From assembly GCF_900161835.1 (NCBI RefSeq), contig NZ_LT897836.1, forward strand, positions 1 through 64,000: 64,000 nt of DNA, written 5' to 3'. Origin of the DNA: Sodalis endosymbiont of Henestaris halophilus. GTDB lineage: Bacteria; Pseudomonadota; Gammaproteobacteria; Enterobacterales; Enterobacteriaceae. A program made the position numbers and the translations under genes. Under the pieces are notes generated by a model. The model was not told the DNA's origin, searched no databases, and saw only the letters and a program-made list of their open reading frames with translations. Shown here piece by piece: positions 6,206 to 52,823 of the stretch. Every line of letters starts with the position of its first letter. Within the stretch, counting starts at the first letter, position 1.

Positions 6206-9200
6206 TAACTAATAAAACTTAGCTTACACTTAGGAAGTGATACAGTTTTTGCTTCAATTTTAAATTCTTAAATAAGATTACTCTTTATTCCACTGTCTCG
6301 CGACTCTCATCATTATCGTTCATATTGAACTATTTTGGCATTAGAAAACCATGTACTACTATATCCTTATGCTACTAAGCACAAAAAAGAAAAATTTATG
6401 CATTACTGATAACTACTAAACAATACAACAACCTAAATAGTCAACTAGTCGTGTTTTCTTAAAAATGCTTCATATTAAAAGCATGATCTTTAAATAGATC
6501 CATTCTTTCGCATGTTAGCGAACTTTTATCTTGAATTTTCCGCAGGTCATTCCGATAGATAATTTCGCAAGAATCTTACAAGCCTTTCATCGATATAAAA
6601 TATTTTACTACTTATTAAATAGTACATGAGTATCATATCACAAAATTATTGAAGTGTCTGGGATTAGTTCGTGATGAACTGAGTACCATTAGCGATTAAA
6701 CTAATAATCTGGAGATAATTAAAATAACAATGCCAACGCTCAGATAAGTAATGCAATCCATGAAATCAACGTTACTAGTCGATTTGATATTTATAACAAT
6801 CTTAGAGGATAAACTATAAGATGAATATCAAGATAATCAGTTAGTTACAAAATTAACTTGGATATGCAGTCAAACGCTAAATGCGATACGGTAATACATA
6901 AATTATTGACGAAACGATAAATATCATAATCAACCATATATAAATCGTGATAAGCTTAACAAAGAAGATATCCACTTTTACAAAGCAGTGCTCTATACCA
7001 TACATAATTCCGTTATAAACCGGTTATGGTGGTTATAATATTTTTAATGCGGTGGATATTATTTATAAATATTATCTGCCCCACTAAACTAAAACGCTCC
7101 GAACACGCTGTAAAAACATTAAGATTTGTATGATACTATTCGCTATCAGCAGGATAACTAGGCGACGGATAAATCGTTGTCTACCATGATCGCGAGCTCA
7201 ATATAATGATTGCATGTATCATATAATTAATACTAAATTACTATAATTATGGATTGTTTAATAAACATGTCTCGTTTTACTTACACGGCTAAATTGCTGC
7301 TAGCACTCATTCGTCAATTAGCGAACGTCACAATGTTGATATGAAGATGATGCCGTATTAATTAGATATTTCGGCAACTAATCTTGTATTAAAAGTAAAA
7401 TAACCTAACAATGATCATAACCAAGTATAAATAGGCAACAGCAATACCACGAGAATATCTGTGCTATATTGTTTTGTCTCATAAGACAAAACCGCATCGT
7501 AAGTAAACGCAAGCGTATTAACATATCTTAACCTTGTAATATCAGCATTATTCTTGATATTAGTATACTCATCAATAAATAACTGCAAAGAGATACGCAT
7601 AGAAGAAACCACGCTACTAAACACCACGTTTTACTCATCTAGCCAGCCTATATTTTAATTTCTAGCGCTAACCATAAATAAATATATATACAAAATAATG
7701 ATGTCGTAATTGACGATTTTCGTACTATTATAAACTAGCAATTTAAAAGATTATAAGTAGTAGCTAATAGCTGTGTTAATTTTAATAAAACAGCAGCTAG
7801 CTTTGGCGTTTCACCAAAGCATAGAGCGGCAATTTAACACAAGTAATATTTTGTTTTTTTTAATTAAAAACATGACGTTCATCCTGCCGAGCAAATTTTC
7901 TTTATCACTATCAGAAGATACTTATCTGATCATCTTATAGCGGTAATAAAACAGGCGAACATACAGCGTGATTGGCGCCTACAGGCTGATAAACGAAACC
8001 TTACCTGCCTTAAACCACGACAATCTTCTTACTGATTTACCATTATTAACAAGCGCTAAATTATAAATAAACTCTAAATTTATGGCCGCGATGACTGTTT
8101 TAATTTGATATAAAAAGATCGTTAATGATTTATAACGAGAAATTATTGCTTATAACTACAATACGCAACATTAACCTCTATGAAGTTGTACCCCATCTAT
8201 TAGTGTTGCTTACTGTTAGCAGTAAGTTGGTAAAATTTCCACTAATGCGCCGGATTAGGAACAAAGCATTGTCAATGCTCCGTAGCAGTTATCAGTAATA
8301 AAGCCATCATTGGTATCAGTCGCAGCAGTGCTAAACTTTATTTACGTGAATTCTTTCAACTATTGCAGTAATGTATTATTTTAGTAAAGGGAGAAAACAC
8401 ATACTATAAAATTAACTAAATTAACTACCTATCAACTACTAATATCATGGATATTTTAATAATATAGATACGAATAAAAAGATTGTCCACGGACACTAGT
8501 TTGGCTATGAAAAGACGCATGAGGAGCATGAAATGTGATGCATGAATTGGAAAAATATGTTTCTAATAAATGAAAGCTCTGGATTAATGATATTTACAAA
8601 GCCTAATACCTAACTCCATCTTATCAGATATAATTCTATTTTATCAGCAATATAATCGGTATCAACTATTCAATGTTAGCTATTAGTATGGCCTATAAGA
8701 TATTTAAAAAGTTGGGTAGGCAAGTGATTTTAAGCATGATGTGAACATCATGCAACAGCGTATCAGAAGTATATAGCTTGTCAGCAGATCCACACTGTTA
8801 ATCTGGATTGCTCAACGGCATAAAGAAACTAATTAAGATTAATTTAACTACGTTAAAACTAAAAAAACTGCAAAAAATCTAGCCGTCAAATAATTTATTT
8901 TAAGTTAATGCGGCGTTAGCCTGTGGCAGCCTACGTATAATTACGCTCTAGAACTTAATATTCATTATCCCTAGATTTACACAACTAAAGTAATACTTTG
9001 ATAACTAAAGTACTAATAAAATTAGTACATTATTTATTGAGAAGTTAATAATACGGAGACAGAGAAATCTTATTTCTTGTTAACAGCAAAACATTCATAC
9101 TCCCTAGTCACCGACAAACGAATATTATCGAATGTGTCTGCAAACTAGCACAGGCAAAATATTTTAACTATTGTAAAAATTTAATCTGTCGCACAGCAAG

Positions 9201-12789: not shown

Positions 12790-13750
12790 CACTGACAACT
12801 CTTCTGCATTACGCGAGAAAACTGCTCAGGGGTACTTCGGTGGCACAGTTTGGAAAAACTGCTAACTTCACCTCCATAACGTATGGTTAGGATAGGCGGG
12901 ATGTAACGATATAGCTGAGGAATCAAGCTCACAGTTAATTTAGACCACGATACTGAAGAAACAGATGAGGATATCACCGGCCACATAATTTAGTACCGCT
13001 AAAGGAATTAATGATCGCAATCCCAAACCATAGGCACTCACGATGGAGCAAACCGTAGTAGAACCCATGTTATCTCCCCACTATACTTCCTCATCTTTAC
13101 ACCCCTAACTTCTGAAATACCTACTAAAAGTAAATGTTAGTAACTGTTAGTAGCTGAAAGACTAGAATGCAGTAAAGCATGAAAATACTCCGGCATTTAA
13201 TATAAATTTGGCACCTAGCAGGTGATTGGGCGTTAACAAGCAAATTTCATTAAGAGTCATAAAAGTTTCGTGATAATTCTATCGGGTGTTTCGTCACACA
13301 AAATAAATTTTTGCTGCACGGAAAGCAATTCCTATAACAGCAGCGACTCATAAATAATATTCAGACTAATTTCTGCATAAGCTGCTAAGAAAACTAAGAA
13401 CAACTTTAACAAAGGTAACTAGAAAATGGTAAAAACAAAACACTGCGTCTAACTACATTCCCGAATGGCGCACGAACTGCTAAGGATCTACTCATGCTAC
13501 AATTAAGAGCGCCCTGTACTGTATTTAATATCCGCAATCCCTGCCCCCTGGACCTGAACCTGGGTCGATTTTTAGGCAGCTTTTAATTCTTTTAAACAGC
13601 GTCGTAACGCTACCACAACTATTCCAGCCGTCAGTTTTCATGGCTCATAGTAGGCTCGAAAAGTATGAATAAGTATTGCAGCCTCAGTCAGATTCTCTAT
13701 ATTCATAACCGCGTGAAGATACCAATCTGTTTTGAGTTTAATGCCATCAT
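12790..13750 (-). pseudogene. lysR: lysR pseudogene, divergent from lysA
   Basis: Conceptual translation of the minus strand recovers LysR peptides in the right order but different frames. From ATG 13750 it reads ALNSKQIGIFTRL, then in another frame VMNIENLTEAAILIHT, matching the E. coli N-terminal helix-turn-helix region AVNLRHIEIF...VMTAGSLTEAAHLLHT as I remember it. Near 13065-12960 it reads STTVCSIVSAYGLGL and IPLAVLNYVAG, then TVSLIPQLYR, matching the C-terminal effector domain. Stops and frameshifts break it, but its span of about 960 bp equals the usual lysR length. In E. coli LysR activates lysA in response to diaminopimelate. The divergent position, 149 bp from the lysA start, is the conserved arrangement. 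The left edge is approximate. Confidence 0.8.
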
Positions 13751-13899
13751 GATTTATTTTATCTTAAGGAGAATTATCCTTGAACAACCATACAGAAACG
13801 CAAAAGATATTTTGTTAATAAGCGCTATTACATTACAAAAAAATATCCTGAGTCAACGCCATCGTTGCCAAGACCGAAATATCACTCAAGAGGAAAACC

Positions 13900-34211: not shown

Positions 34212-37200
34212 ATGACTACCGAACAACTTAACCTTCTTACATTACCGCTGCATGGTAGTCGTCTTATCGAAGCGGCAGCAGGAACGGGAAAAACCTATAC
34301 TTTGGCAATGCTTTATCTACGACTTATGCTTGGGTTAGGTGGCGAGTCCGCGTATTCACGACCATTGAATGTACAAGAAATATTGGTGGTAACCTTTACG
34401 AAGGCAACCGCTAAGGAACTGCGCGGCCGTATCCGTAACAATATACGTCAACTGAGGATGGCCTGCCTGGAAGGCAATAGCGCGGATCCACTGATGGCGG
34501 CACTAATCGCGCAACTTAGAGATTTACGATGGGCCGCATCGCATCTTCTAGCAGCCGAGCGGCAGATAGATGAAGCGGCGATTTATACTATCCATGGTTT
34601 CTGCCAGCACATACTTAATTACAACACTGTTGAGTCAGGAATGCTATTTAATCAAACATTGCTAGAAAATGAATCATCCTTGAACCAGCAATTTATCGCT
34701 GATTTTTGGCGCCGCCATTGCTATCCGTTGCCAATAGACGTTGCACGAATCGTACTACAGTACTGGGAAGGACCTGAAAAATTGTTGGAGGAATTGCTAC
34801 CTTATCTCCAGGGTGAACCACCGATGATACTTAATCCACCAGATATAACCGAGTCTATCTTGGCTCGTCATGAGCGCATAATAGCTAGCATTAATGACCT
34901 TAAGAGACAATGGCGCGCGGCATCATCAACGCTAAAAACGATACTCTACGAGTATAAACTAGACCGGCGCGTTTATAGCAATAAAAATATACTAACCTGG
35001 CTTGCAAAAACCGATCGCTGGGCGAATGAAAACACCATAAATTATCAAGTACCAGATGAATTAATGCGGTTCACAAGCTCAGTGTTAAAAGAAAAAACCA
35101 TAGGCAACGAACCACCACAACATGAACTATTTGTCAAGATAGAGGCCTTTTATCAACAGAGACTATCGCTGCGCGAACTTATTTTCAGTATGGCATTGGT
35201 GGAAATGCGTCAAGATCTAGAAAAGGAAAAAAAAAGCAAGGCGGAAATGGGATTCAACGATTTGCTAAGTAGCCTGGAAAAAGCGCTAGTCAATAGTGGT
35301 GAAAACCTGTCAGAATCGGTGCGTATACGCTATCCAGTAGTTATGATCGATGAGTTTCAGGATACCGACCCACAGCAATATCGCATTTTTCGCCGGATTT
35401 ACAGCGGTCAATCAGACTGCGGTCTAATATTGATAGGTGACCCTAAACAAGCCATTTACGCGTTTCGCAACGCGGATATTTTTACTTATCTGCTAGCCCG
35501 AAGTGAAGTTAATTGTCACTATACCCTTGATACCAACTGGCGTTCCACACCAGGAATGATCAATGCAGTAAATCACATATTTCAAAGCTTGCCAGAGCCA
35601 TTTATTTTTAGCGATATTCCTTTTGTACCGGCAATAGCCGCCGAGGGTAACGTCAATTTCCGACTAGTTGTTAATAATCAACCTCAATCAGCAATGCACA
35701 TATGGCTACAACCTGGTGCCGGCGTAGGAGTAAGAGAGTACCAAAAATGCATGGCTCGTCAGTGTGCTACTACCATTCGTGACTGGCTTTATGCAGCGCA
35801 GGAAGGAAAAGCGTGGCTAGAAAAGCACCAAGGGCGTCAAACACTGCAAGCGTCAGATATCACGGTACTGGTGCACAACCGCAAAGAAGCAGCTCTGGTA
35901 CGTGATGCACTGGCGACACTTATGATCCCATCCGTATATCTTTCTAACAAAGATAGCGTTTTTAAGACGATAGAGGCACGAGAACTACAATGGATTTTGC
36001 AAGCAGTGTTAATGCCGGAACAAGATATTACACTGCGACGCGCACTGGCTACCTCACTGCTAAGCTTTAATGCAGCCACAATAAATGCGCTAAATAACGA
36101 CGATCAACGATGGGAGCAATTGATCGAAGAGTTTACCTGTTATCGCCAGCGCTGGCAAAAAAATGGAATACAACCAATGTTGCGTCAAATAATGAAAAAT
36201 TATCGCATTGCGGAAAGCTTGTTGTCAAGCCAGGGGGGGCAACGTCGGCTTACAGATGTGCTACATTTAGAAGAATTGCTGCAAGAAGCCTCGACGCAAC
36301 TGGATAACGAATTTGCACTGATTCGTTGGCTAGAAATTCAAGTACAATCCCCTAATCCACAAATTAATAATCAACAAGTGCGGCTAGAAAGCGATCACCA
36401 CCTAGTACAAATCATTACGGTGCATAAATCCAAAGGTTTAGAATTTCCACTAGTGTTCCTGCCGTTCGCGGCCAATTTCCACACGCAAAAGCGACCACTA
36501 TTTCACGATCGTATTACGTACAGTGCCTGGCTAGATCTCAACGCGGCACCAGAGAGTTTACGGCTGGCAGAAGAGGAGAGGCTATCGGAAGATTTACGTC
36601 TGTTGTACGTAGCACTAACGCGATCTATCTACCATTGCAGTATCGGTATCGCACCACTATGCTGCAGCAACCGTAAAAAAAATGGTGCCAGCAATCTTCA
36701 TTTAAGTGCATTAGGTTACCTTATTCAGCAAGGGCTGGATAGTTATGCTTATGACCTGCGAGAGAAGCTAGCGGCGCTAGCTTCTCGTTCCAGCGGTGAT
36801 ATTGTACTGTACGAAGATTTGCTCGCTACCCCAGCAAAAACTATTATGCCAATACCTGCACGAACACCCACATTGAGCGTCCGAAAATGTCCTTCGCTAC
36901 CCCGAGATACATGGCGAATCACCAGTTATTCTGATCTGCAAAAACACGACAGCTCGGAGGTGATAGAGTTGCAGCTATGGTTAGACGGAGATGCAGCAAG
37001 GGATTGTAAGTCTAAGGAAATTCTACCGCTGACACAGCATAACTTTCCGAGAGGCACGTCAACCGGAAGGTTTTTGCATAGCCTGCTTGAAACTTTAAAT
37101 TTTAACAAGTCATTAGACCCACAGTCGCTCAACAAAAAATTAACACAACAAGGCATCGATACTGTTTGGCTACCAATAATAACGCAATGGATAGAAAACA

Positions 37201-37736
37201 TTCTTGCTATGCCGCTGGATAACAGATCGATTTCTCTAGCAAACATTGCGCCCGACAGCCGCCATACTGAACTATCTTTTTATCTGCTTATACACTCTTT
37301 AGTACAAGCGCGTGATATTGATATACTCTGCAAGCGCTATGATCCGCTTTCAGCACGTTGCCCATCGTTAGATTTTCCGCAGTTTACGGGAATATTGAAA
37401 GGATTTATTGATCTAGTTTTTCGCTGGCAGGGCCGGTATTACATTCTGGACTATAAATCTAACTGGCTAGGGGAAAATGATTCAGCCTATACCTTATCGG
37501 CGATGGAACAGGCCATAATTACCCATCGTTATGACTTGCAGTACCAACTTTATACTTTAGCGCTGCATCGTTTTTTGCGACACCGCATAATAGATTATAA
37601 TTACCAGCGCGATTTCGGCGAGGTATATTATGTGTTTCTACGCGGCATTAACTCGTCAATGCCAAGAAACGGTATTTTTCATTGTCGACCGGATATCGAC
37701 TTAATTGATGGACTTGATAAATTATTTACCGGCTAA
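34212..37736 (+). CDS. recB: exodeoxyribonuclease V subunit RecB
   Basis: RecB carries the slow 3'-5' helicase motor and the nuclease of RecBCD. Helicase motifs are intact: Walker A AAAGTGKTYTLA near residue 24, VVTFTKATAKELRGRI, IDEFQDTDPQQYRIFR, LIGDPKQAIYAFRNADIF, LDTNWRST, ITVHKSKGLEFPLVFLP and EDLRLLYVALTRS. The C-terminal nuclease domain keeps GILKGFIDLVF and YYILDYKSNWLG (metal-binding Asp residues and Lys) and the HRYDLQYQLYTLALHR segment. At 1,174 aa it matches E. coli (1,180). ATG 34212 is the chosen start; an in-frame TTG at 34200 is possible but stands only two bases after AAGGA. recD follows after 16 bases. Confidence 0.97.
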   Translation: MTTEQLNLLTLPLHGSRLIEAAAGTGKTYTLAMLYLRLMLGLGGESAYSRPLNVQEILVVTFTKATAKELRGRIRNNIRQLRMACLEGNSADPLMAALIAQLRDLRWAASHLLAAERQIDEAAIYTIHGFCQHILNYNTVESGMLFNQTLLENESSLNQQFIADFWRRHCYPLPIDVARIVLQYWEGPEKLLEELLPYLQGEPPMILNPPDITESILARHERIIASINDLKRQWRAASSTLKTILYEYKLDRRVYSNKNILTWLAKTDRWANENTINYQVPDELMRFTSSVLKEKTIGNEPPQHELFVKIEAFYQQRLSLRELIFSMALVEMRQDLEKEKKSKAEMGFNDLLSSLEKALVNSGENLSESVRIRYPVVMIDEFQDTDPQQYRIFRRIYSGQSDCGLILIGDPKQAIYAFRNADIFTYLLARSEVNCHYTLDTNWRSTPGMINAVNHIFQSLPEPFIFSDIPFVPAIAAEGNVNFRLVVNNQPQSAMHIWLQPGAGVGVREYQKCMARQCATTIRDWLYAAQEGKAWLEKHQGRQTLQASDITVLVHNRKEAALVRDALATLMIPSVYLSNKDSVFKTIEARELQWILQAVLMPEQDITLRRALATSLLSFNAATINALNNDDQRWEQLIEEFTCYRQRWQKNGIQPMLRQIMKNYRIAESLLSSQGGQRRLTDVLHLEELLQEASTQLDNEFALIRWLEIQVQSPNPQINNQQVRLESDHHLVQIITVHKSKGLEFPLVFLPFAANFHTQKRPLFHDRITYSAWLDLNAAPESLRLAEEERLSEDLRLLYVALTRSIYHCSIGIAPLCCSNRKKNGASNLHLSALGYLIQQGLDSYAYDLREKLAALASRSSGDIVLYEDLLATPAKTIMPIPARTPTLSVRKCPSLPRDTWRITSYSDLQKHDSSEVIELQLWLDGDAARDCKSKEILPLTQHNFPRGTSTGRFLHSLLETLNFNKSLDPQSLNKKLTQQGIDTVWLPIITQWIENILAMPLDNRSISLANIAPDSRHTELSFYLLIHSLVQARDIDILCKRYDPLSARCPSLDFPQFTGILKGFIDLVFRWQGRYYILDYKSNWLGENDSAYTLSAMEQAIITHRYDLQYQLYTLALHRFLRHRIIDYNYQRDFGEVYYVFLRGINSSMPRNGIFHCRPDIDLIDGLDKLFTG

Positions 37737-37752
37737 CGTAGGTAGCTCGTAT

Positions 37753-39600
37753 ATGGAAAAAATTCTTGCCGAAGCGCAACAGTTACATTTATTTCGACCA
37801 CTGGACGTCCAATTCGCCCGAATGCTAGCTACATCAGCCGACCCTACACTAATGTTGGCTAGCGCCTGCCTTAGCGCTAATGCCAGTTCAGGACATGTTT
37901 GCCTACCCCTAGAACGATTAATGCCTGCGCAACTATTTAACGGCCGTATGCCGTTACTAGCGCAGCAGGCTTGGTTGCGGGCCGGTAGACCTTCTCTTGA
38001 AGAATGGCAAAAGATACTGCTAAATTCCAAGGCAGTTAGCTCCGGTTCGCATCCAACGCCACTAGTACTAGATAAGCAGAGATTATATTTACAACGCATG
38101 TGGCGCTATGAATGCAAAGTGGCACAGTTTTTCAAACGTCGACCGCCACCTGCAGAATATAACGGAACTAACATCGCCTCGGTCCTTACACGTTATTTCC
38201 CTAGCGACGGCACAGTAATCAATTGGCAAAAAATCGCGGCAGCAGTCGCGATAACACGCCCAGTCGCACTGATATCTGGAGGTCCTGGCACTGGTAAAAC
38301 CACAACTGTAGCCAAGATGATGGCTGCTTTTCTGCAGTTGAACAACAACAAACGCTTACGCATGATTATGGCTGCCCCTACGGGTAAAGCAGCATCGCGC
38401 CTGAGCGAATCTCTTGGCTTGGCCTTAAAGCGACTGGGGCTAAATGAACAACAGAAACAACTGCTGCCGCTTGAGGCAATAACGCTGCACCATTTGCTCG
38501 GAGCGCAGCCCAATAGCCAAAAGATGATTTATCATCAAGACAATCAGCTACAAGTAGATATTTTGATTATTGATGAAGCGTCAATGATTGATTTGACGAT
38601 GATGGCTAATTTGATTGCAGCGCTACCGCCGCAAGCGCGAGTGATATTTTTGGGGGATCGTTTTCAGTTATCCTCGGTGGAGGCAGGAGCAGTATTGAGC
38701 GATATCTGCCAGTTCGCAGAGAGTGGATACAGCTCCGAGCGACGCGCGGAGCTGTCGCGTCTAACGGGCTTTACGCTATCGGAAGATGATACAGGATGCT
38801 GCGGTTATGGAGTCGCCGATAGTTTATGCCTGCTCCGTAATAACTACCGCTTTGATGAAAGTTCCGGTATTAACCGACTAGCAAATATTATACACACTGG
38901 CGATTACAAGGGTGCGATAAAGTTGCTTAAAGCCGGCATCGAGAGGGATATCAACTACAAGCAGTTACGTGATGCAGAGGAATATCTGCGTATGCTAAAC
39001 GACTGCATTGACGGCTATAAAGACTATTTGCAGCAAGTGCACAAACACGATGCACCGGACAAAATTCTTGAATCCTTTAACCGATTCCGACTGTTGTGTG
39101 CGCTGCGAGAAGGACCATTCGGGATCGCTGGCCTTAACGAACGTATTAAGTGGGCTTTAAGCAACTCGGGGCTGATCGCTCTCGATAATACCGCACACTG
39201 GTACGCAGGGCGTCCGGTAATGATATTACGCAACGCACCGGAACTAGATCTGTATAACGGTGATATCGGTATCTTTCTTTGGGACAGTCAACAGACGCTA
39301 CGCGTGCATTTCTCCCTACCAGTAGGTGGTGTTAAAACTATATCGTTGAGACGATTACCTGAGCATGAAACGGCGTTCGCGATGACGGTACATAAATCTC
39401 AGGGATCGGAATTCCATCACACAGCCTTAGTGTTACCCAATAAAATATTACCAGTATTAACGAGAGAGCTGTTCTATACTGCTGTGACACGTGCACGCTC
39501 ACGTTTATCTATATACGCTACAGAGAAGGTATTGCAGCACATTATTAAAACTAAAACCCTGCGAAGCAGTGGCCTTATCGAACGACTTGCCACCGATTAA
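37753..39600 (+). CDS. recD: exodeoxyribonuclease V subunit RecD
   Basis: RecD is the fast 5'-3' helicase motor of RecBCD. Walker A SGGPGTGKTTTVAKMM lies near residues 175-190. Walker B is IIDEASMIDLTMM. Later motifs are VIFLGDRFQLSSVEAGAVL and AMTVHKSQGSEFHHTALVLP, with the C-terminal FYTAVTRARSRLSIYA. At 615 aa it is near E. coli (608). ATG 37753 was chosen because it gives an E. coli-like N-terminus (MEKILAEAQQLHLFRPLDVQFA) and follows TAGGTAG; the open frame extends upstream into recB. Phe replaces the Asp of the E. coli GDRDQL motif. A terminator follows at 39717. Confidence 0.96.
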   Translation: MEKILAEAQQLHLFRPLDVQFARMLATSADPTLMLASACLSANASSGHVCLPLERLMPAQLFNGRMPLLAQQAWLRAGRPSLEEWQKILLNSKAVSSGSHPTPLVLDKQRLYLQRMWRYECKVAQFFKRRPPPAEYNGTNIASVLTRYFPSDGTVINWQKIAAAVAITRPVALISGGPGTGKTTTVAKMMAAFLQLNNNKRLRMIMAAPTGKAASRLSESLGLALKRLGLNEQQKQLLPLEAITLHHLLGAQPNSQKMIYHQDNQLQVDILIIDEASMIDLTMMANLIAALPPQARVIFLGDRFQLSSVEAGAVLSDICQFAESGYSSERRAELSRLTGFTLSEDDTGCCGYGVADSLCLLRNNYRFDESSGINRLANIIHTGDYKGAIKLLKAGIERDINYKQLRDAEEYLRMLNDCIDGYKDYLQQVHKHDAPDKILESFNRFRLLCALREGPFGIAGLNERIKWALSNSGLIALDNTAHWYAGRPVMILRNAPELDLYNGDIGIFLWDSQQTLRVHFSLPVGGVKTISLRRLPEHETAFAMTVHKSQGSEFHHTALVLPNKILPVLTRELFYTAVTRARSRLSIYATEKVLQHIIKTKTLRSSGLIERLATD

Positions 39601-39716
39601 AACGCACTATCGCTGCTATTCTAAGTTTAATGACATGCTACGGCTAGGATTAATAGCATCCATACCATAGAGTTTACACTATTTATCTAAATTAGTTTTT
39701 TGCATGGCTGCTCAAC

Positions 39717-39748
39717 ATTCTGTCCTCCTTCTTGGACAGAATATTTTT
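39717..39748 (+). terminator. Rho-independent terminator after recD
   Basis: ATTCTGTCC, 8-nt loop, GGACAGAAT, then ATTTTT. It lies 117 bases after the recD stop and is a canonical intrinsic terminator for the recB-recD unit. Confidence 0.8.
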
Positions 39749-41113
39749 ATCTAATTCTTATTGTGTTAAATCTCTCTGCGTAATACCAGCAGATCCTGAT
39801 GTCATTGTGGCATCCCCTGTGTAGAATAATGTTTTTATAAGTAAATTTATTTAGGTAAGAATCATGATGTTGCTTAACTTGGACATCCCCTCTGTCTTTT
39901 ATCTTCCCTAAAGCTAATTATATTAAACTTTTATCTCGGTATTGATCTCACAGGATCATGCTTTATTGTTATTTCATAACCAATACAAAATAAGACCAAG
40001 CCAATATTTAAGGCTTGTTATAATATTTTCCTTAGTTGTATGATAACCATCATTGCTTTAGAAAACAAAATTAAGTAGCCTCTTAGGCTTGTCTGAAGCG
40101 CTTACCAAAGTGATGGGAATTACTTTATGGCTATTGCTATAGATAATTTCCGGTTACAAAAGGTAATAATCATCACTAAAGTAAAAAAACCGCTAAAAGC
40201 GATTTCATAATAAAAGATTTCCATCAGTATCATATTAGAACGATATTAGAAGATGTATGGCACGCATCAATGTATTTTATCGCTTAATATTAGGCGTGCT
40301 CGTCGCAGCAGAACTTAAGTTATTAATTTCTGTATTATCTCGTACAGCAAGGCAAATACAGAAATGGTAGAAGTAGAAATTATTATTCCGGCAGTAAAAT
40401 GGGATGTATCGCTATTTATATAATAAATGTGGTGCTATTATTTATGCTGCTGCAATGCCAAGTATCGTTATAACCGACTAACAACACACAAAGCATGATA
40501 GTTATTGATCGGAAACAATATAAATATGATTTATAAATACGATTTTGCCGACAGTGGTGTTTGATACAAAACACACCTCTATACCCTGTGTTTATATACA
40601 TTAAACGGTAATTTAATCCCTGCCTATACCATAAAAGATAAAATGCAGTAGGTGTTTAGCGGATAATCCGATATTACTGAAGCCTAATTGGGAAAACTAA
40701 TTCACGTTCGTGAGATAATAACATGGTTATAGTACGATAACTATCGTATTATCTTTGTTTTTATAGAACAAAATGGTTGCCAGCTTAAGGCTTAAATTGG
40801 TCCGGATAAAAATTTAATTCGAATACTCACATTCGAAATAAGATTAATAAACAAAAAGGAAAACTAGTCTGAGTGAAAATTGCTTTTATAAAAAGCAGTG
40901 ATAATCATAGTTGCTGATTTACGCTTTAAATATTTGCTTTAAACTTATCAAAAATTGCTAAATATGCAAAAATTATTATATCTAGTAATAATCTCATTAT
41001 TCAGTAGAATGACAACAAATAGATATAATCTAATCTAAATTTTATTTGAAAAATTCAAGCATAAATTATAATCGTGTAATATTATACGTTAATCTAGACA
41101 AAACTATGATAAC

Positions 41114-41350
41114 CTTCTCTATTGCTAGAGAAGCAAGTGTACATTACATGAGGCTTTAATTAATTGACTTTGAGCAAACATGGGTAGAAAATAAACTACT
41201 TCACAGTAGTATAACTGCTACGTACTAGCAAGTAGTACGTAACAGTTATATGCTAGTTAACTTTCTTATCATTGACTATTAATACTCTTACTGGTAATTG
41301 AAAAGTTGGTACATTACTAGTAGTAATGTAATAAAATTACATACTTAGAT
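41114..41350 (-). other. cluster of hairpins 3' of initiator tRNA
   Basis: Hairpins lie in quick succession: 41114-41133 (8 bp, CTTCTCTA/TAGAGAAG), 41195-41210 (6 bp), 41210-41250 (8 pairs, one C-A mismatch, 9 more pairs, 5-nt loop), 41310-41330 (9 bp, TACATTACT/AGTAATGTA) and 41341-41356 (7 bp, directly after the encoded CCA). The 17-pair stem is far beyond what this composition would give by chance. On the minus strand the first one met after the tRNA is followed by ATTTTATT, so it may terminate or define the tRNA 3' end. The role of the others is unknown. Confidence 0.6.
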
Positions 41351-41355
41351 AAGTA

Positions 41356-41432
<77 letters not shown>

Positions 41433-41442
41433 CTTATGGATT

Positions 41443-41470
41443 ATTATATAACTATAGCGGCTTTAGTCAA
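41443..41470 (-). promoter_or_regulatory. promoter of the initiator tRNA gene
   Basis: On the minus strand TTGACT (41470-41465), 16-base spacer, TATAAT (41448-41443), ending 10 bases before the mature tRNA 5' end. It is a near-consensus sigma-70 promoter in the right place and orientation. Confidence 0.85.
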
Positions 41471-43265
41471 CTTATTTTTTGTAAATTTCTTCCCAATTTA
41501 TAGAGTAGTATTTGTTTAATATAAACTCACTAAATTATACTCATAAATAAATACACATAAAAAGATATTAACACCTTAAATTATTATATTTCTGCTAGAT
41601 TTCTACATTGAAATTAATAGCGTGAAATATTATAAATACAGAGTAAAAATTTGGCATTCCCATTATTATTACTATTTTCCGTGTATAAATTCCATCTATG
41701 AATTGCAGATGAGCAGTATAAATAAATGACGAAAACGCGATAAAGCCTTTATAGTAAATACTGACTAAATCCTGTCACTATTACTTCCGCCATTACTGGC
41801 TCCTGTAACTTACACCTGAAAAGGACTTCAAGTAACATAATAAACATGAACGATACAACCATACTCTAATAGCCTATTCACCAGGATGATTATGCCGTTA
41901 ACTAATACTAACCCTAGATGCATAAGCAAAGAGACGAAGACATAGCGATACTTTACTATTGCTACCGATCCTGCGGATAAAATATATTTAAACAAATCAA
42001 AGATTATTTTACATTGCGGCCTATTTTGAAAATAAAATTGTATGATTTACTAAATCAGCTTTATAAAAGATACTTAGTTATAATTTTTCAAAAATGCAAT
42101 TTTTTTGCCTATAATCATGAATAGTCAATCCCCAAAAATATTTATGTTCAAACAATGCCTTCCACTTAATACCTTATAGGTGTTTCACGTAATGGAATGT
42201 TGCTGAAATTTCTTCACTAAAACTATGAACAAGTTATGCGTTACGCAGGACGCCATCAATCATCAGATTGACTTGTAGGAGGATTTTTCTGGGTTAATAT
42301 TCTTTAGGCGCCATAATTGCTTGCTAGCAAAGACTACAAAAAGTAAAACCATTATTTTGATATGCAGATATTTTTTTTGTACTTGCGTAAGAGTTTGTGC
42401 AAGCTACAATTGAGCGGGGCTAAAAACGCGCTTACGAGTTAGATTGATGCCGATCTTAACTTATTCAGAAGTTGTGATATTGCTATTCCCATGTTTGAAC
42501 GCATTTTGACCCGGTATTGATATTTTGTAATCCAGGTCAGTAATAAATTGCTAGAAAATAACTGATAACTTAATAGTGGGTCACTTAATTAAAAGTGGTA
42601 GTTTTTTACATAGCAGCGGTAATTAATCAGCAAAGCCAGTAAATAGTTGTATATCGAATAAGTATTTATAATTTGTGCGACAGCTATATTGCTCATCATC
42701 TACTACAAACAACGTTGTATTTAACATACCATATACTCTTGCATGATCATTGCAGAGAGAATTTCTTTACAATCTGATATTTAAATTTGAGCTAGCTCAT
42801 TATACGCACAAGGGATCTATTTTAGTTACATAGCCATGATCATAGGCGGCCGCAATTCATTATCGGTGCGTGATGGCTCACTCTGCTTAATATTATCATA
42901 GAGCAAAAGGAAAGTAAGGTCAGTGCTAATAACATACACGTTAGATCAGATTGTTGGTAAGCAAACATGTATTTTCTATAGTGTGTAATTAGAACTTCAG
43001 CAGAAGTAAACACAATCGACGATTTGCTTCAATGGAACTTAGGCACGCAGTCTAACGCTACTGCTAGATGACAGCAGATTTTCTATTGATAATTATCAAA
43101 AGTAGTACAGCACAATTAAAAATTAGTACACTATACTTAATAGTGAAGTGCTAATTTTAACTACCCCTTCAGTAGATTTTATTCAGGACAATCGAAACAC
43201 CGTAGCGTTCATCTCTTATAACGTACTGAAACTATCTACCACATTAAATGCTATAACGCCAGCCG

Positions 43266-43284
43266 TCACTTATTTAATAAGTGA
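43266..43284. repeat. perfect 19-nt palindrome
   Basis: TCACTTATT, central T, AATAAGTGA: nine pairs. The AT-rich arms are unrelated to other hairpins here. Confidence 0.6.
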
Positions 43285-43491
43285 TTTCATCAGTAATATC
43301 ATTAACTAATTAATTTGAAATTAAAATAAAGCTAATTTTCGACCAATATTAAATTTCTTAACATGAAAATAACACCATAAATATTAGCTAATGACCTATT
43401 GTTAACTAGATATAAACTTCTTTTTTGAACTAAAAAGCAATGTAGTCAAATTTGCTAATAATTTTTATTACAATAAATAATTACAGATTCA

Positions 43492-43507
43492 AAAAGCTAT
43501 AGCTTTT
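43492..43507. repeat. perfect 16-nt palindrome
   Basis: AAAAGCTA followed directly by TAGCTTTT. Confidence 0.55.
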
Positions 43508-45007
43508 CTTATAAAAATAACTTACTCAACTATTCTAGTTAATCGATACACTCAAATTTTTATATCTAGTCACATAGCTGTGACAACCTTGTGATGTTTA
43601 TTGCAATTTTACGACTTATAGCACTGATGGACTAATAAGTCCAATACTCAAGCGAGAGTAATTCAACGCAGTTTGATAACAAAACATATACCGTTATCGA
43701 AATCTACTAAATTAATGATAAAATCATTAGCTATACCGTAATTTATATCCACAAAGTCAAGATGAAGCATTTATTGGTTATCCAGAATGGCTATGAATAA
43801 AAGAACTAGCGATATCATAACTAACATTTGAACGGGAGAAATTCTTAAATTATCTAGTAAGCGTGCGAAACTTATTATTCGCAGGTAAATTAAAAAATTT
43901 ACTCTATAATTGACCTAGTCATAATATATACTGGTTATTAACGTGCGGAATCAAATGTTTTATTGATTAGTAGACTTCTTTCTCGTAAGTATTGTTTTAT
44001 AGAGCCTAATAAAGCCACATACACTAAGCGGTACATACTGATAGGCATAAAAATGTAGGCTATGCGCAATAATTCAAAATAACAAACCTAAGAGGGTTAA
44101 TTTTAGGAAAAACAGACTTAGAAATGGTTCTAAACAGCTCTTTACTTTTCAAAACTATAAAAACAGAAGAAGGTGCCAAAAGCATTAGTAACCTCATCGC
44201 ATTACCAAAATAGAATTTGCTATAATCCGCTTATCAAAACGGTTGCTATAGCGTTATCACCTCCACTGCTGATACAAAAAAAATTTTTTACCCGTCTTGT
44301 GTAGTTAGCAGACGTTTTAACCTAACCGATGCTTGTAGGTAGAGCTGTTTGTTTAACTTTGTAACACCGCCAAACCATAGTTGCATTTCAGCTTGGGACG
44401 TTATTTCCCTAACAATCGTTCAAACGGATAATGAAACAAAGCATACTTATATGATCTTTAATCATAATTTTGCAACGTATTGTGAGATCAATACCTGCAA
44501 CGCTAGCCTGGAATTTTGTGACTGTACACCCCTGTTAACCCAGGAATATAAATCAACTGTTCCCCCTAGTATGCTAATGGGTATAAATTCACAACTAAAT
44601 CCCACGCGAATGACTGGCATGTCAAACTCCTGTAAATATTTGTTACTAACGTACGCATGCGCTTATCTTGCGATAATTGCTGGTGGGATAGAGTTTTTTT
44701 TTATTTTTATACTGCTAGTTGCAATAAAACTGACAAGCTGTGTAGCTAGTGCGATAATAGTTAATAGAACAAATAGTTCCCTAAAAGGGGGAAAACATAT
44801 AGCACTCTGCCGCAGGCATAAGATTGATCTGGTTAAAAGATCAACTATCAATAACAATTACATCATTAAAACAAAGTTTTATCCTCCTAATTTTACTTTA
44901 TATAAATGAGAAACACCCCATCGCAGCGATAAAACCGACTTTTTTACAACATCGATCAAAGTTACATCCCAATTTTATTGCAAAAAAGATAGGAACTACC
45001 AGGCAAT

Positions 45008-45040
45008 TTCATCAGCTTTAGGATGATGAAGACCTAAAGC
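45008..45040. other. two overlapping, mutually exclusive hairpins
   Basis: TTCATCA (45008-45014) can pair with TGATGAA (45024-45030). GCTTTAGG (45015-45022) can pair with CCTAAAGC (45033-45040). The stems interlock, so only one can form at a time, or both as a pseudoknot. It resembles a regulatory switch, but no gene follows, so it may be chance or a relic. Confidence 0.4.
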
Positions 45041-46042
45041 AATACATCTACATAACCACACATAATCTCAGCTTCATCATGCAGAGTTGATAAAATCCGT
45101 GTCTCTGGATAAAGAGCGAATGACATTTTTCCTTAAAGTTGCCCGCGATGATGCCAGAGAAAGCCCCTCCCGACGTCTAACGTCAAGCATTATGACGGCT
45201 GATCACGATGCAAATTAAGGTTAACTATATTTTAATAACAAAGTTTAAACGAATACTGAAAATCATAAGTGATGCGCAACGACCAATTGAAGCCATAAAC
45301 ATGGTCGCTACCTCGTTGTTTTTTCTAAAATCCTGATATTACTTTTCATATGACTGGCACTTCTGCGAAATCATTAACAATGATATAATAATGGTATTAA
45401 TAGCTTCGGCACCAAGAGTGCTGACAATAAATTCGTTCAGCGCTCAGAAATAATTAGCGCTTTTTTGGTCTAATAAGACCTAGTGGCAACATCTGATAAA
45501 ATGGCACTCTTTAATAATGCTATTGTGTATCTCCAAAGGCTTAGCCTCCCTCTTCATAAGGAGCTACGTCGCACTCATCCAATTAGCGAATGTGCCAATG
45601 TTCAATTTACGTAATCCTAAACTGATTACAGGCAGCGCTAGCGTAGCTATATTCGCTTACGTTAATAGAATGCAAGCCCCCGCAGAAATTTATATTAGGC
45701 GCCTCATCTCGTGTAAGGCATAAAATGAAAAACACCAGATTTGTGATCTGATAAATATGTGTGATAAATTAAAATGTTAATGCTTAACTACACTTATAGT
45801 ATAGTTGTTAATAAACAAGATATCCTGCAATACTGCAAACAAAGTTAGCCTGCAATAAACGGATGATATGGTCATAGATAAATGCTTCCATCGTCTGGTT
45901 AATTAATTCAAACTTTGTGTTACGTGCGTGGCGTAACACATTGATATCAAAATTCTGATAGCGCTCAACCGGTTTTATTTTACTATTATTCTGGATCCCA
46001 TAATTAAGCACAATCAGTGCACAGTTGCAAAATAATTGATAA

Positions 46043-46068
46043 AGGATACGCTGCTAGCGGCGTATCCT
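46043..46068. repeat. perfect hairpin, 9-bp GC-containing stem
   Basis: AGGATACGC, loop TGCTAGCG, GCGTATCCT. The loop itself contains the palindrome GCTAGC. No T-run follows. Confidence 0.65.
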
Positions 46069-47171
46069 ACGCATATATACATGCAATAATAGATCCATAA
46101 AGCCTAACGAGTTAATATACTTAATCAAGATAGCTCTCTATAATAATTACATTCTAACTGAATATAAGCAACCGTGGTATGTAATACTGCACGGTAGGTC
46201 CAGTGAGTCTGATTAAAACTAATTAGATACATTTTAGAACTTTTTAATTCAATAAGATTAAAGATCCTCGCTGTAGGTTGTTTAGATTAATTTTGCTAAT
46301 TGCAACTTGCAGCGGGTTTCGTATCTTTGAATAAAGATAATGCATACAAAATTGATAAATATCAACCAGTAAGAAATAAATAGCAATTTAGAAGGTCATG
46401 CGGTATTAACTAAAGCAACCTAGACTCAGAGCACTAGCGAGCAAGGATTAATTTCCCCATCATCAGAGATTGTAAAAGCGTAATATTGGTCCATAGTACA
46501 TCATGGTGGTTACTTTAGAACTGTACTGTTACGCTTTAAATTAATTTAATGCATATCACTGCAACATGATAAAAAATAAGAACTCAATCGTTACTCTAGC
46601 ATGGGTAAATTGTACAAGAGCTATGTAGTATACTGGCAATAAATGACAGCTAAGTTACCTAACAAGAAGACAAAAGGCTATCCCCGGCAAGCATATTGCC
46701 TTTAAAGTACCAGTAATGCAATTTACTGCTATAACCGCACGGTGGCACAGGATTATACTTTGGCGAAAGTTGAACTGACACTGACTTTGCAACCAAAATA
46801 GTCAGAGTAAATCTACTAACTACAATGTTAATATAGTTAGTAACTATATGGGTAATATAAGCCTAACTGATGTAGGCATAGAGCAAATTTAATTTACTCC
46901 GATTACAGTTAGATTTTAAAAGACATTTTGCTGATGCGAAAGCTTCATCGGTCATACGATGCATTAGCAGGTAGAGGGGTAAACTGTATGAAGTTATTAG
47001 TAAGAGAGTGATCATAGGTAATGCAACAAAACCATCTTGAAGTTACAACTATCGCCGTAAAACCACATTTTGTTTATAAACAAATTATAATGCGTTTAAA
47101 ATTTAATTAACGATATAATATAAAAGCAATATGCTAATTAATTAATTACTTTACTTATTTTACGCTTTATA

Positions 47172-47190
47172 AAAAGTTATAATAACTTTT
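47172..47190. repeat. perfect 19-nt palindrome
   Basis: AAAAGTTAT, central A, ATAACTTTT. More small hairpins follow at 47202-47217, 47325-47339 and 47344-47358, so this kilobase is locally dense in stem-loops. Confidence 0.55.
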
Positions 47191-47526
47191 ATTGAGAACA
47201 AAAGGTTAAGCAACCTTAACAATCATATTAGTAAAGTAAATACCGACTCCTTAATAAGATTGTACCGCATGAATAGTGCGAAGAATTTAACGCAAAACTG
47301 GCGAGACAAAATTGATAAAAAACATGCCTTTCAAAGGCAAACGTTGCTCAAAGAGCAATATTATCGACACAGATTATTGTAATCTAATTTAGTACTAAGC
47401 TAATAAGCAATATAGACATATACAGTAAGCATAAATATAGCAATATTGATATAAAACAACGTTATGCCATTTTTTTAGCGATAAACAGCTTTGGAGAGAA
47501 AGAACAAATACTGATAGTATGCATAT

Positions 47527-47641
47527 CTATCTATCTGATTGGTAGTTGCATAACTTCCCGCAGATCAGGAAGTTTGTTTTGTTCTCTGAAATTGATCACT
47601 TTTAGAGATCAACCTCGCTTAACATTGCACGAGGATTTTTT
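47527..47641 (+). ncRNA. candidate small RNA with terminator
   Basis: Three consecutive stem-loops: AACTTCC/GGAAGTT (47552-47574) followed by a G/T-rich run, TTGATC/GATCAA (47592-47612), and CCTCG/CGAGG followed by ATTTTTT (47613-47641), a Rho-independent terminator shape. A possible promoter TTGGAG, 18 bases, TAGTAT (47491-47520) would start an RNA of about 115 nt. By synteny gcvB lies in this direction from metZWV in E. coli, and the G/T-rich segment faintly recalls its target-binding region, but the sequence does not match GcvB. It could equally be the relic of a gene's terminator. Confidence 0.3.
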
Positions 47642-48510
47642 ATCATTGCTTTCGGAGTTAAAAGCAGCGCTTATGTATTGCTTTACATAAAGTTTAATCT
47701 TTTTTATATAATATAAACTACCTACATCGTAGGTGAATAACACGATGTACATCAATAATTTTGACTACGGATGAACTCCTAGTTCATGCCATACTTTTAC
47801 CAATTGACGTAATCGAATACGATTAGCAACAGAACTGCTGATTTTTAATCATTAATTAAAAACTATAACTAGCAACAACTGACATTTGAATTATGCTGGT
47901 TCTTTAACATTATTAAATTACATATTGCTGCATAAGCAAAAGTTGAGTTTGCTAGGTTCAAGACTAATATAAGGTCTTTCATTCAAAGCAGCAAGTGTAT
48001 GATAGTTGCACACAATGGTGTTAATAAGTGTATTTATTAATATAGTACACGGTGTAACTAACTGTTAACTAATAAAATAAAGTATTTTATACTAGATCAT
48101 AGTCGTCAGATAAGTGACTCAATGGGAAAATGATATCATGGAAGCCATGAATTGACGTATATCTAACAAGATAATTTTCTGATTATTATCTCTACAACAG
48201 ATAAGAGGACGACACTGCTGCATAATTTTATGTTGTGTTTACTCTAACAAGTAAAAAAAAGATAAGCTGCAGTATCAAGTCAGTGCTATGCTAATATTGC
48301 CTTCACGTGAGGTTAAAGCAGTAGAGCACAAGGGGCGCTGACGAAAATTTTCTTTTAGAATTTGATGTGGCGTATGGCTGATTCAGCGTCGAAAAGGCTG
48401 ATTTATTGCTGAATGGTAAAGCGGAGTACTTAACCATCATAAGAGCCGCAGGCAATATAATTTATTAGCGATATTACACGCTAAACATTTTGAATAAATA
48501 TAAAAACTCT

Positions 48511-48543
48511 GAACTATGCGGCGCATTGCCGCAAGTTCTTTTT
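48511..48543. terminator. bidirectional terminator downstream of dapD
   Basis: GAACT, bulged A, TGCGGC, loop GCATT, GCCGCA, AGTTC: eleven pairs with one bulge. On the plus strand TTTTT follows directly; on the minus strand a GTTTTTA run follows after a few bases. It lies 310 bases beyond the dapD stop and is the best terminator for dapD. The high GC in such an AT-rich surrounding suggests it is still under selection. Confidence 0.75.
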
Positions 48544-48853
48544 GGGACGGAATACTGTTATCAAGGCTTTTGTTCCTAGGGTATGTTTTAAAACATGACT
48601 ATATAAAGTTTCTGTGCTGATGCCTCGACTTAACAAACCGTATTATTGTTTCATAGGTCATTTTAGATACTTCTTCGCTGTCGAAATTTTATTGAATACC
48701 CAGCTTCTAAATTGGATAAGTTGTCTAATGTTTTAATATTTGCATCGCAGTCCGATCGTGCAGATGAATTTTATTTCACTCATCATTCACATGTAATTTA
48801 TGTAATCTCATAACACTTTTGATGAGTAAGATCACGTCCGCTGTCAATAATAT

Positions 48854-51960: not shown

Positions 51961-52097
51961 CGTTTGTCGTAACAAAATTTAATTCTGTTATTACACACAC
52001 GTATCGTCACATGCAACGGGGTGCTTTAACCGTCAGGTAGGAGTTAGTCGTATGGGATACGTGGAAGCATAACCCCAAATTTACTTAGAGGTTTATC
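51961..52097 (+). promoter_or_regulatory. rpsB leader, probable S2 autoregulatory RNA
   Basis: The 5' untranslated region of rpsB is GC-richer than the surrounding spacer. It contains CGGGGTGC (52017-52024) complementary to GCATAACCCC (52067-52076) and the stretch GGGATACGTGGAAGCATAA, which resembles the conserved enterobacterial S2-binding leader (also known as the t44/tff RNA) as I remember it. In E. coli S2 represses rpsB-tsf through this structure. Retention in a genome that is losing regulators is notable. Confidence 0.65.
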
Positions 52098-52823
52098 ATG
52101 GCAACTATTTCCATGCGTGACATGCTCCAAGCGGGTGTTCATTTTGGTCATCAAACCCGTTACTGGAACCCTAAAATGAAGCCTTTTATTTACGGTACCC
52201 GTAATAAAGTTCACATTATTAACCTGGAACAAACGGTATTTATGTTCAACGAAGCTCTAGCTGAGTTGCACAAAATTGCCTCGCGTAAAGGCAAAATTTT
52301 ATTTGTCGGCACCAAACGCGCCGCAAACGAAGCGATAAAAGAAGCGGCTAAAAGCTGCAATCAATTCTTCGTCAATCATCGATGGCTAGGTGGTATGTTG
52401 ACCAACTGGAAAACAGTTCGTCAGTCTATCAAGCGTTTAAAAGACCTGGAAACACAGTCTCAGGATGGTACTTTCGAAAAACTAACCAAAAAAGAAGCAC
52501 TATTGCGTACTCGTGAATTAAACAAACTAGAAAAAAGCCTTGGCGGTATCAAGGATATGGGTGGTCTACCAGACGCTCTATTTGTTGTCGATGCTCAACA
52601 CGAATATATTTCTATCAAAGAAGCAAAAAAATTGGGCATTCCGGTTTTCGCTATCGTTGATACTAACTCCGAACCTAACGGCGTAGACTTTATTATTCCG
52701 GGTAATGATGATGCCACACGCGCAATTAATCTGTACCTAACCACCGTTGCGACCACCTTGCGAGAAAGTTTTTCTCAAAATATAGCACAGCAGATTGAAG
52801 AAAGCTTTGTAGCGGCGGAATAA
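52098..52823 (+). CDS. rpsB: 30S ribosomal protein S2
   Basis: Ribosomal protein S2 of the small subunit. It is 241 aa, the same as E. coli, and aligns throughout: [85 protein letters not shown] and [21 protein letters not shown] 52098 follows AGAGG by seven bases. It is expressed from a structured leader and followed by an attenuator-like stem before tsf. It is first in the rpsB-tsf-pyrH-frr block. Confidence 0.98.

Follow-up and report, generated by a model that had tools for sequence, protein, structure and literature searches.

The hairpins behind the initiator tRNA gene of the Sodalis endosymbiont of Henestaris halophilus are probably unselected palindromes in a decaying spacer that remained once argA, amiC and a second tRNA-fMet gene had disappeared, with arms that probably arose by short-range template switching. 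The main hairpin (41210-41250, minus strand) is beyond chance, is without a match found in relatives, and is part of a genome-wide population that lies off the ends of open reading frames (ORFs) and is in excess at short loops only. It is most likely one of many such hairpins in its own genome (G000), and functional readings of it were unsupported. Positions refer to the window, which is the first 64 kb of a single contig of 1,622,395 bases.

The tRNA-fMet gene (anticodon CAT, 41356-41432, minus strand) was located with ARAGORN and Rfam and was assigned to the metZ type from flank alignment and gene order. Both tools gave a single tRNA in the stretch, where tRNA was the sole Rfam family above threshold (six weaker matches were all below their cut-offs). 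The gene was said in the preliminary description to have a near-consensus promoter, and a promoter-like site TTGACT-16-TATAAT with 11 of 12 consensus matches is present (41443-41470, minus strand), at the same place, by eye, as in the two nearest relatives: Candidatus Sodalis sp. SoCistrobi (L105) and Candidatus Sodalis endolongispinus (L115), whose RecD proteins are 72-73% identical to that of the window.

Five stem-loops had been reported between the 3' end of the tRNA gene and position 41114, and all five were recovered on the minus strand. In the direction of tRNA transcription, they are as follows: a 7-bp stem with a 4-nt loop (41340-41357, -4.4 kcal/mol), which sits on the tRNA 3' end and uses its last CA; a 9-bp stem with a 3-nt loop (41310-41330, -7.0 kcal/mol); the main hairpin; a 5-bp stem (41196-41209, -4.2 kcal/mol), followed by the T-rich tract TTTATTTTC (41187-41195) and absent from the terminator-scan output; and an 8-bp stem with a 4-nt loop (41114-41133, -10.3 kcal/mol). 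The 5-bp stem was matched by 13 of 200 shuffles, and six perfect pairs can be drawn at 41195-41210. The main hairpin, which spans +106 to +146 from the tRNA, has exactly the 8 pairs, one mismatch, 9 pairs and 5-nt loop described earlier. Because the mismatch becomes U.G in RNA made in the tRNA direction, the helix there has 18 unbroken pairs (17 Watson-Crick plus one U.G; -23.9 kcal/mol, 0 of 200 shuffles as good). It had been singled out as the strongest non-coding structure, and it does rank first among the hairpins of the 64 kb (runner-up: 13 pairs). A larger imperfect stem encloses it (41178-41278, minus strand, -33.2 kcal/mol, z -5.1).

Hairpins were counted in a 464-kb sample (the window and 20 further 20-kb stretches) and in dinucleotide-preserving shuffles. 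Hairpins with at least 13, 15 and 17 pairs numbered 28, 9 and 5, against 2.2, 0.2 and 0 in the shuffles. As no hairpin of at least 17 pairs occurred in five shuffles of the 464 kb, the main stem is not a product of chance, and a fortuitous match in AT-rich DNA is already refuted for it and can be given practically no weight. The small stems singly could be chance, since 440 of 1154 gene-free windows held at least one perfect stem of at least 7 pairs. As for the cluster, among 1154 other gene-free windows of 243 nt, 7 held five or more perfect stems of at least 6 pairs and 1 had as many pairs in total; with stems of at least 7 pairs, the same two measures gave 15 and 6 of 1154. The 64-kb window itself offers 124 gene-free windows of this length, so the cluster is unusual, not extreme.

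The locus is a decayed metZ-type region, of which recD and one tRNA-fMet gene are left, and in which argA, amiC and the second tRNA are not recognisable. In the relative L034, the gene order is recD, argA, amiC, two tRNA-fMet genes, mltA. In the window, recD (37705-39600, plus strand), the nearest intact gene downstream of the tRNA, and one tRNA-fMet gene keep this relative orientation, and the genes between them are lost. The names dapD, dxr, recB, recC, recD, argA, amiC and mltA were tested by NCBIfam. The promoter side of the tRNA gene could be aligned to that of the first of the two fMet genes in L105 and of the single one in L115 (303 nt, 67%). Further tRNA-fMet genes at such a position had been claimed for E. 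coli, and the claim holds for Sodalis-type relatives: paired genes were seen in L032, L034 and L035 (three of the ten RecD-bearing loci scanned) and also in L105. Where the relatives carry argA, amiC, the second tRNA-fMet gene and a terminator, the window has gene-free DNA without recognisable remains (39601-41339). No likeness to argA or amiC was found there by blastn or tblastx, and remains of the second tRNA, argA or amiC were sought by blastn, tblastx and shuffle-tested alignments with no success. Every blastn or tblastx match in 39601-48853 is confined to 41251-41644, which comprises the tRNA and its flank; one of them, a tblastx segment against L103, extends from the tRNA to 41251. With argA, amiC and the second tRNA lost, the hairpins occupy the space of the lost genes.

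Relatives carry a second tRNA at this very place, and the hairpins could be taken for what remains of it. This reading was already disfavoured by ARAGORN and Rfam, which see one tRNA only, and 180 of 500 shuffles aligned to the tRNA as well as the 3' flank did; we consider it extremely improbable. Across the approximately 9 kb between recD and dapD (39601-48853), the tRNA gene alone could be named, and the longest ORF (44349-44909) gave no NCBIfam match at 1e-5.

In the sampled genome, the long hairpins keep clear of long open frames and of ORF ends. None of 17 hairpins with at least 14 pairs lay inside open frames of at least 150 codons, though such frames cover 36% of the sample. For the placement census, an ORF was a frame of at least 120 codons, short genes being uncounted. 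On this definition, none of 26 non-ORF hairpins with at least 13 pairs lay within 200 nt of an ORF end (random expectation about 7% for each end). At a threshold of 11 pairs, 3 of 91 were within 100 nt of an ORF 3' end (random 4%) and 79 of 91 were more than 500 nt from any ORF end (random 72%). In the large-genome relative G011, 19 of 26 were within 100 nt of an ORF 3' end (random 21%) and 2 of 26 more than 500 nt away (random 22%); the non-coding hairpins of G011 look like terminators, and those of G000 do not. Hairpins of at least 11 pairs within 100 nt of an ORF 3' end made up 5 of 11 in G060, 3 of 42 in G062 and 3 of 19 in G067. A T tail on either side was seen in 5, 2 and 2 of the own-genome hairpins with at least 13, 15 and 17 pairs, respectively. 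The two longest sampled hairpins have 24 and 23 pairs. They lie at 8455-8514 and 13744-13801 of the sampled stretch L137 (genome position 1406000 + offset); the 23-pair hairpin is followed by a T run and stands 64 nt 5' of a tRNA-Pro gene (13604-13680, minus strand).

A higher hairpin rate in symbionts was considered and is not clear: hairpins with at least 13 pairs number 60 per Mb in G000, the same as in the large-genome G011 (60), with 30 in G060, 90 in G062 and 85 in G067. According to a published survey, endosymbionts account for 28 of the 200 bacteria with the highest inverted-repeat content (PMC10434271). The genome studied here is likewise reduced, AT-rich and full of inverted repeats; the survey reports repeats to be abundant near genes and RNAs, whereas the long ones here are not at ORF ends, with two near tRNAs.

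Inverted 9-mers outside ORFs were counted at loops of 3-6, 7-12, 13-20, 21-40 and 41-60 nt, giving 75, 37, 27, 39 and 36 in the real sequence against 9.5, 10.2, 9.8, 40.8 and 38.0 in shuffles; a mirror-repeat control gave 15, 15, 20, 37 and 33. The genome-wide excess of inverted repeats is thus limited to short loops (up to 20 nt), as is predicted by fold-back copying. A short-loop excess was also present in G060 (7 vs 0.2) and G011 (12 vs 0.2) at loops of 3-6 nt, and there it can be explained by terminators, at least for G011. In the own genome, direct repeats in the same five spacing classes numbered 46, 48, 41, 66 and 40. Their frequency at short spacing (46 at 3-6 nt, against 15 mirror repeats) indicates that fold-back copying is not the sole local process and that slippage or duplication is also at work. 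In G062 (L160-L169), too, short direct repeats outside ORFs are numerous: 105 kb held 136 of them at spacing 21-40, compared with 66 in 294 kb of the own genome.

Hairpins inside genes could be compared with relatives. A perfect 11-bp hairpin in recB (36762-36786) forms all 11 of its 11 pairs here, compared with 3-5 in six gap-free relatives (two further relatives had gaps and one gave no row). At this hairpin, a serine codon is AGC in L029 and L030 and TCT here, as copying of one arm would give. The recD hairpin has 11 of 12 pairs here against 3-9 in nine relatives, and two dxr hairpins have 13 of 14 and 9 of 10 against 6-10 and 3-7, each in 13 relatives. Since these hairpins had been chosen for their pairing here, the comparison was also run in reverse: nine hairpins with at least 10 pairs, taken from the recB and recD genes of five relatives, have 3-9 pairs here. 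Taken both ways, the comparison indicates that hairpins come and go in these lineages, with no demonstrated higher rate here.

Of the three options put forward in the preliminary description, mutational palindromes fit best, given the beyond-chance hairpins, the short-loop excess, the placement off ORF ends and the turnover in genes. In the proposed mechanism, a stalled nascent strand would fold back and copy itself, by which long arms would be made and perfected, and the palindromes would persist because little here is under selection. Published work describes template switching at quasipalindromes in E. coli lacZ reporters (PMC7202029, PMC6357072) and proposes it as a source of perfect RNA stems (PMC8794818). 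The main hairpin resembles such products in being a near-perfect inverted repeat with a short loop, beyond chance, in a genome whose inverted-repeat excess is restricted to short loops and which has lineage-specific hairpins in recB, recD and dxr. It differs from the E. coli quasipalindromes in that no relative aligns across it, so that there is no before/after pair at this locus; we infer the template-switch event at this very site, and likewise the lack of function. Several observations pull the other way. The U.G at the mismatch in tRNA-direction RNA slightly favours selection on that RNA (by our estimate, an even chance otherwise). Hairpins are not avoided near tRNA genes: 2 of 26 with at least 13 pairs, one of them the main hairpin, lie within 150 nt of one of eight sampled tRNA genes, where 0.24 would be expected, and this counts against a neutral origin. 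So does the position of the main hairpin near the expected place of the relatives' terminator (about +94 expected by arithmetic if only the second tRNA were lost, +106 found). The long stems behind other tRNA-fMet genes (given below), a hairpin density equal to that of G011, the short-loop excess in G011 and G060, and the frequent direct repeats weigh on the same side.

A structured RNA made together with the tRNA, one of the options raised previously, gained no support and is very unlikely. The 256-nt stretch does fold well on the tRNA strand (z -3.2, 0 of 200 shuffles as good; opposite strand: z -2.75, 3 of 200), and the larger nested stem adds to this case. Such folding is, however, ordinary for gene-free DNA: 20 of 480 other gene-free 256-nt windows matched the fold z of the target (-3.6 in the same run), 25 of 480 reached z -3.2, 54 of 480 reached its free energy, and the mean z was -0.82. 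With about 4% of gene-free windows folding as strongly, a strong lone hairpin beside an RNA gene says little about function when the symbiont genome around it is decaying, and we advise caution in such cases. The Rfam matches besides the tRNA were all sub-threshold, and no second copy of the hairpin was found in the own genome; a repeat family was also rejected, the best other genome match (E 0.016) being, by eye, not a copy of the hairpin. Nor did any listed match in relatives reach the stem. The genus contains one genome, and the search was taken to the family (392 genomes including this one, 316 with a match at 1e-28): in the 391 other genomes, none of the matches listed passed query position 340, the main stem being at 401-441. 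In 59 relatives searched at E 0.001, the matches listed ended by position 106, and in nine Sodalis-type genomes by position 90, with the stem at 191-231 in both. Since all these matches have the tRNA as their anchor, they could miss a diverged stem on its own. The compensatory changes for which the preliminary description proposed to look were not seen, as none of the listed matches reaches 41210-41250. None of the papers listed in the literature searches dealt with this locus.

The main open rival, which we regard as a minority possibility, is that the tRNA transcript has its end, weakened or remodelled, at the main hairpin. More fully, and again only tentatively, the hairpin with the small stem and T-rich tract would be a weak or remodelled terminator, or a 3'-end stabiliser of the tRNA-fMet transcript, that replaces or descends from the metZ-type terminator. 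A strong promoter-like site is nearby, the minus-strand RNA has its 18 continuous pairs (a stable stem-loop of the kind that an intrinsic terminator needs), the position roughly agrees with that expected, and the 5-bp stem and TTTATTTTC come after the hairpin. Behind the same tRNA, L105 and L115 have an 18-bp, one-mismatch, U-tailed terminator of unrelated sequence. The two structures are alike in their place and in their long stem of about 18 pairs; the window hairpin differs in having no U tail (CTACTGTGAA comes next on the tRNA strand, in place of a U-rich tract), no detectable sequence similarity, and a distance of +106 to +146 from the tRNA, compared with +29/30 to +80/81 from the last tRNA in L105/L115. 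In other genomes, a long stem after tRNA-fMet is no rarity: with G.U allowed, a stem of at least 15 pairs occurred in at least 9 of 52 other 3' flanks (250 nt each, after removal of duplicates), against 72 of 2238 gene-free strand-windows of the own genome. A second long hairpin of the own genome also lies near a tRNA, the tRNA-Pro, though on its 5' side. Against the rival, the 3' flanks of the seven other sampled tRNA genes hold at most a 12-pair hairpin.

Against an intrinsic terminator, and against the earlier suggestion of a series of them, a consensus scan gave no terminator-like site on either strand, in addition to the lack of a U tail and the unlikeness to the two nearest relatives. 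The 3' flank is no closer to those relatives than shuffles are: 311 of 500 scored as well for L105 and 99 of 500 for L115, while the upstream control gave 0 of 500 for both (for L109, 185 of 500 against 10 of 500 upstream; for L111, 24 of 500). The local alignment of the 3' arm with L115 is tempting as a relic of the ancestral terminator, and on the shuffle count this candidate was rejected. As the genome encodes Rho, the transcript need not end at an intrinsic terminator; a weak or Rho-assisted transcript end may still lie at the hairpin. Neutral palindromes, probably formed by template switching, remain our preferred reading, and the hairpin population, rather than a single hairpin, could serve studies of fold-back mutation under weak selection.

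Repair genes were searched for in five genomes. Neither SbcD nor SbcC turned up in G000, G062 or G067; both were found in G011, and in part in G060. For exonuclease VII, the search detected no large subunit in G000 or G067 and a broken one in G062. All five genomes have exonuclease I and Rho. Full-length recB, recC and recD are present in the own genome, and a published study proposes that RecBCD limits quasipalindrome mutations (PMC6357072). A contribution of SbcCD and exonuclease VII loss to the hairpins is possible; hairpin density does not follow nuclease loss, and the link is therefore suggestive only. A broader proposal, that reduced symbionts without SbcCD and exonuclease VII accumulate fold-back palindromes in gene-free DNA and so record template switching almost free of selection, with the tRNA-fMet hairpins as one such record, strikes us as unlikely. 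Further along the window, a t44 RNA was detected with Rfam (51976-52073, 66 bits); it directly precedes a putative rpsB, the ORF at 52098.
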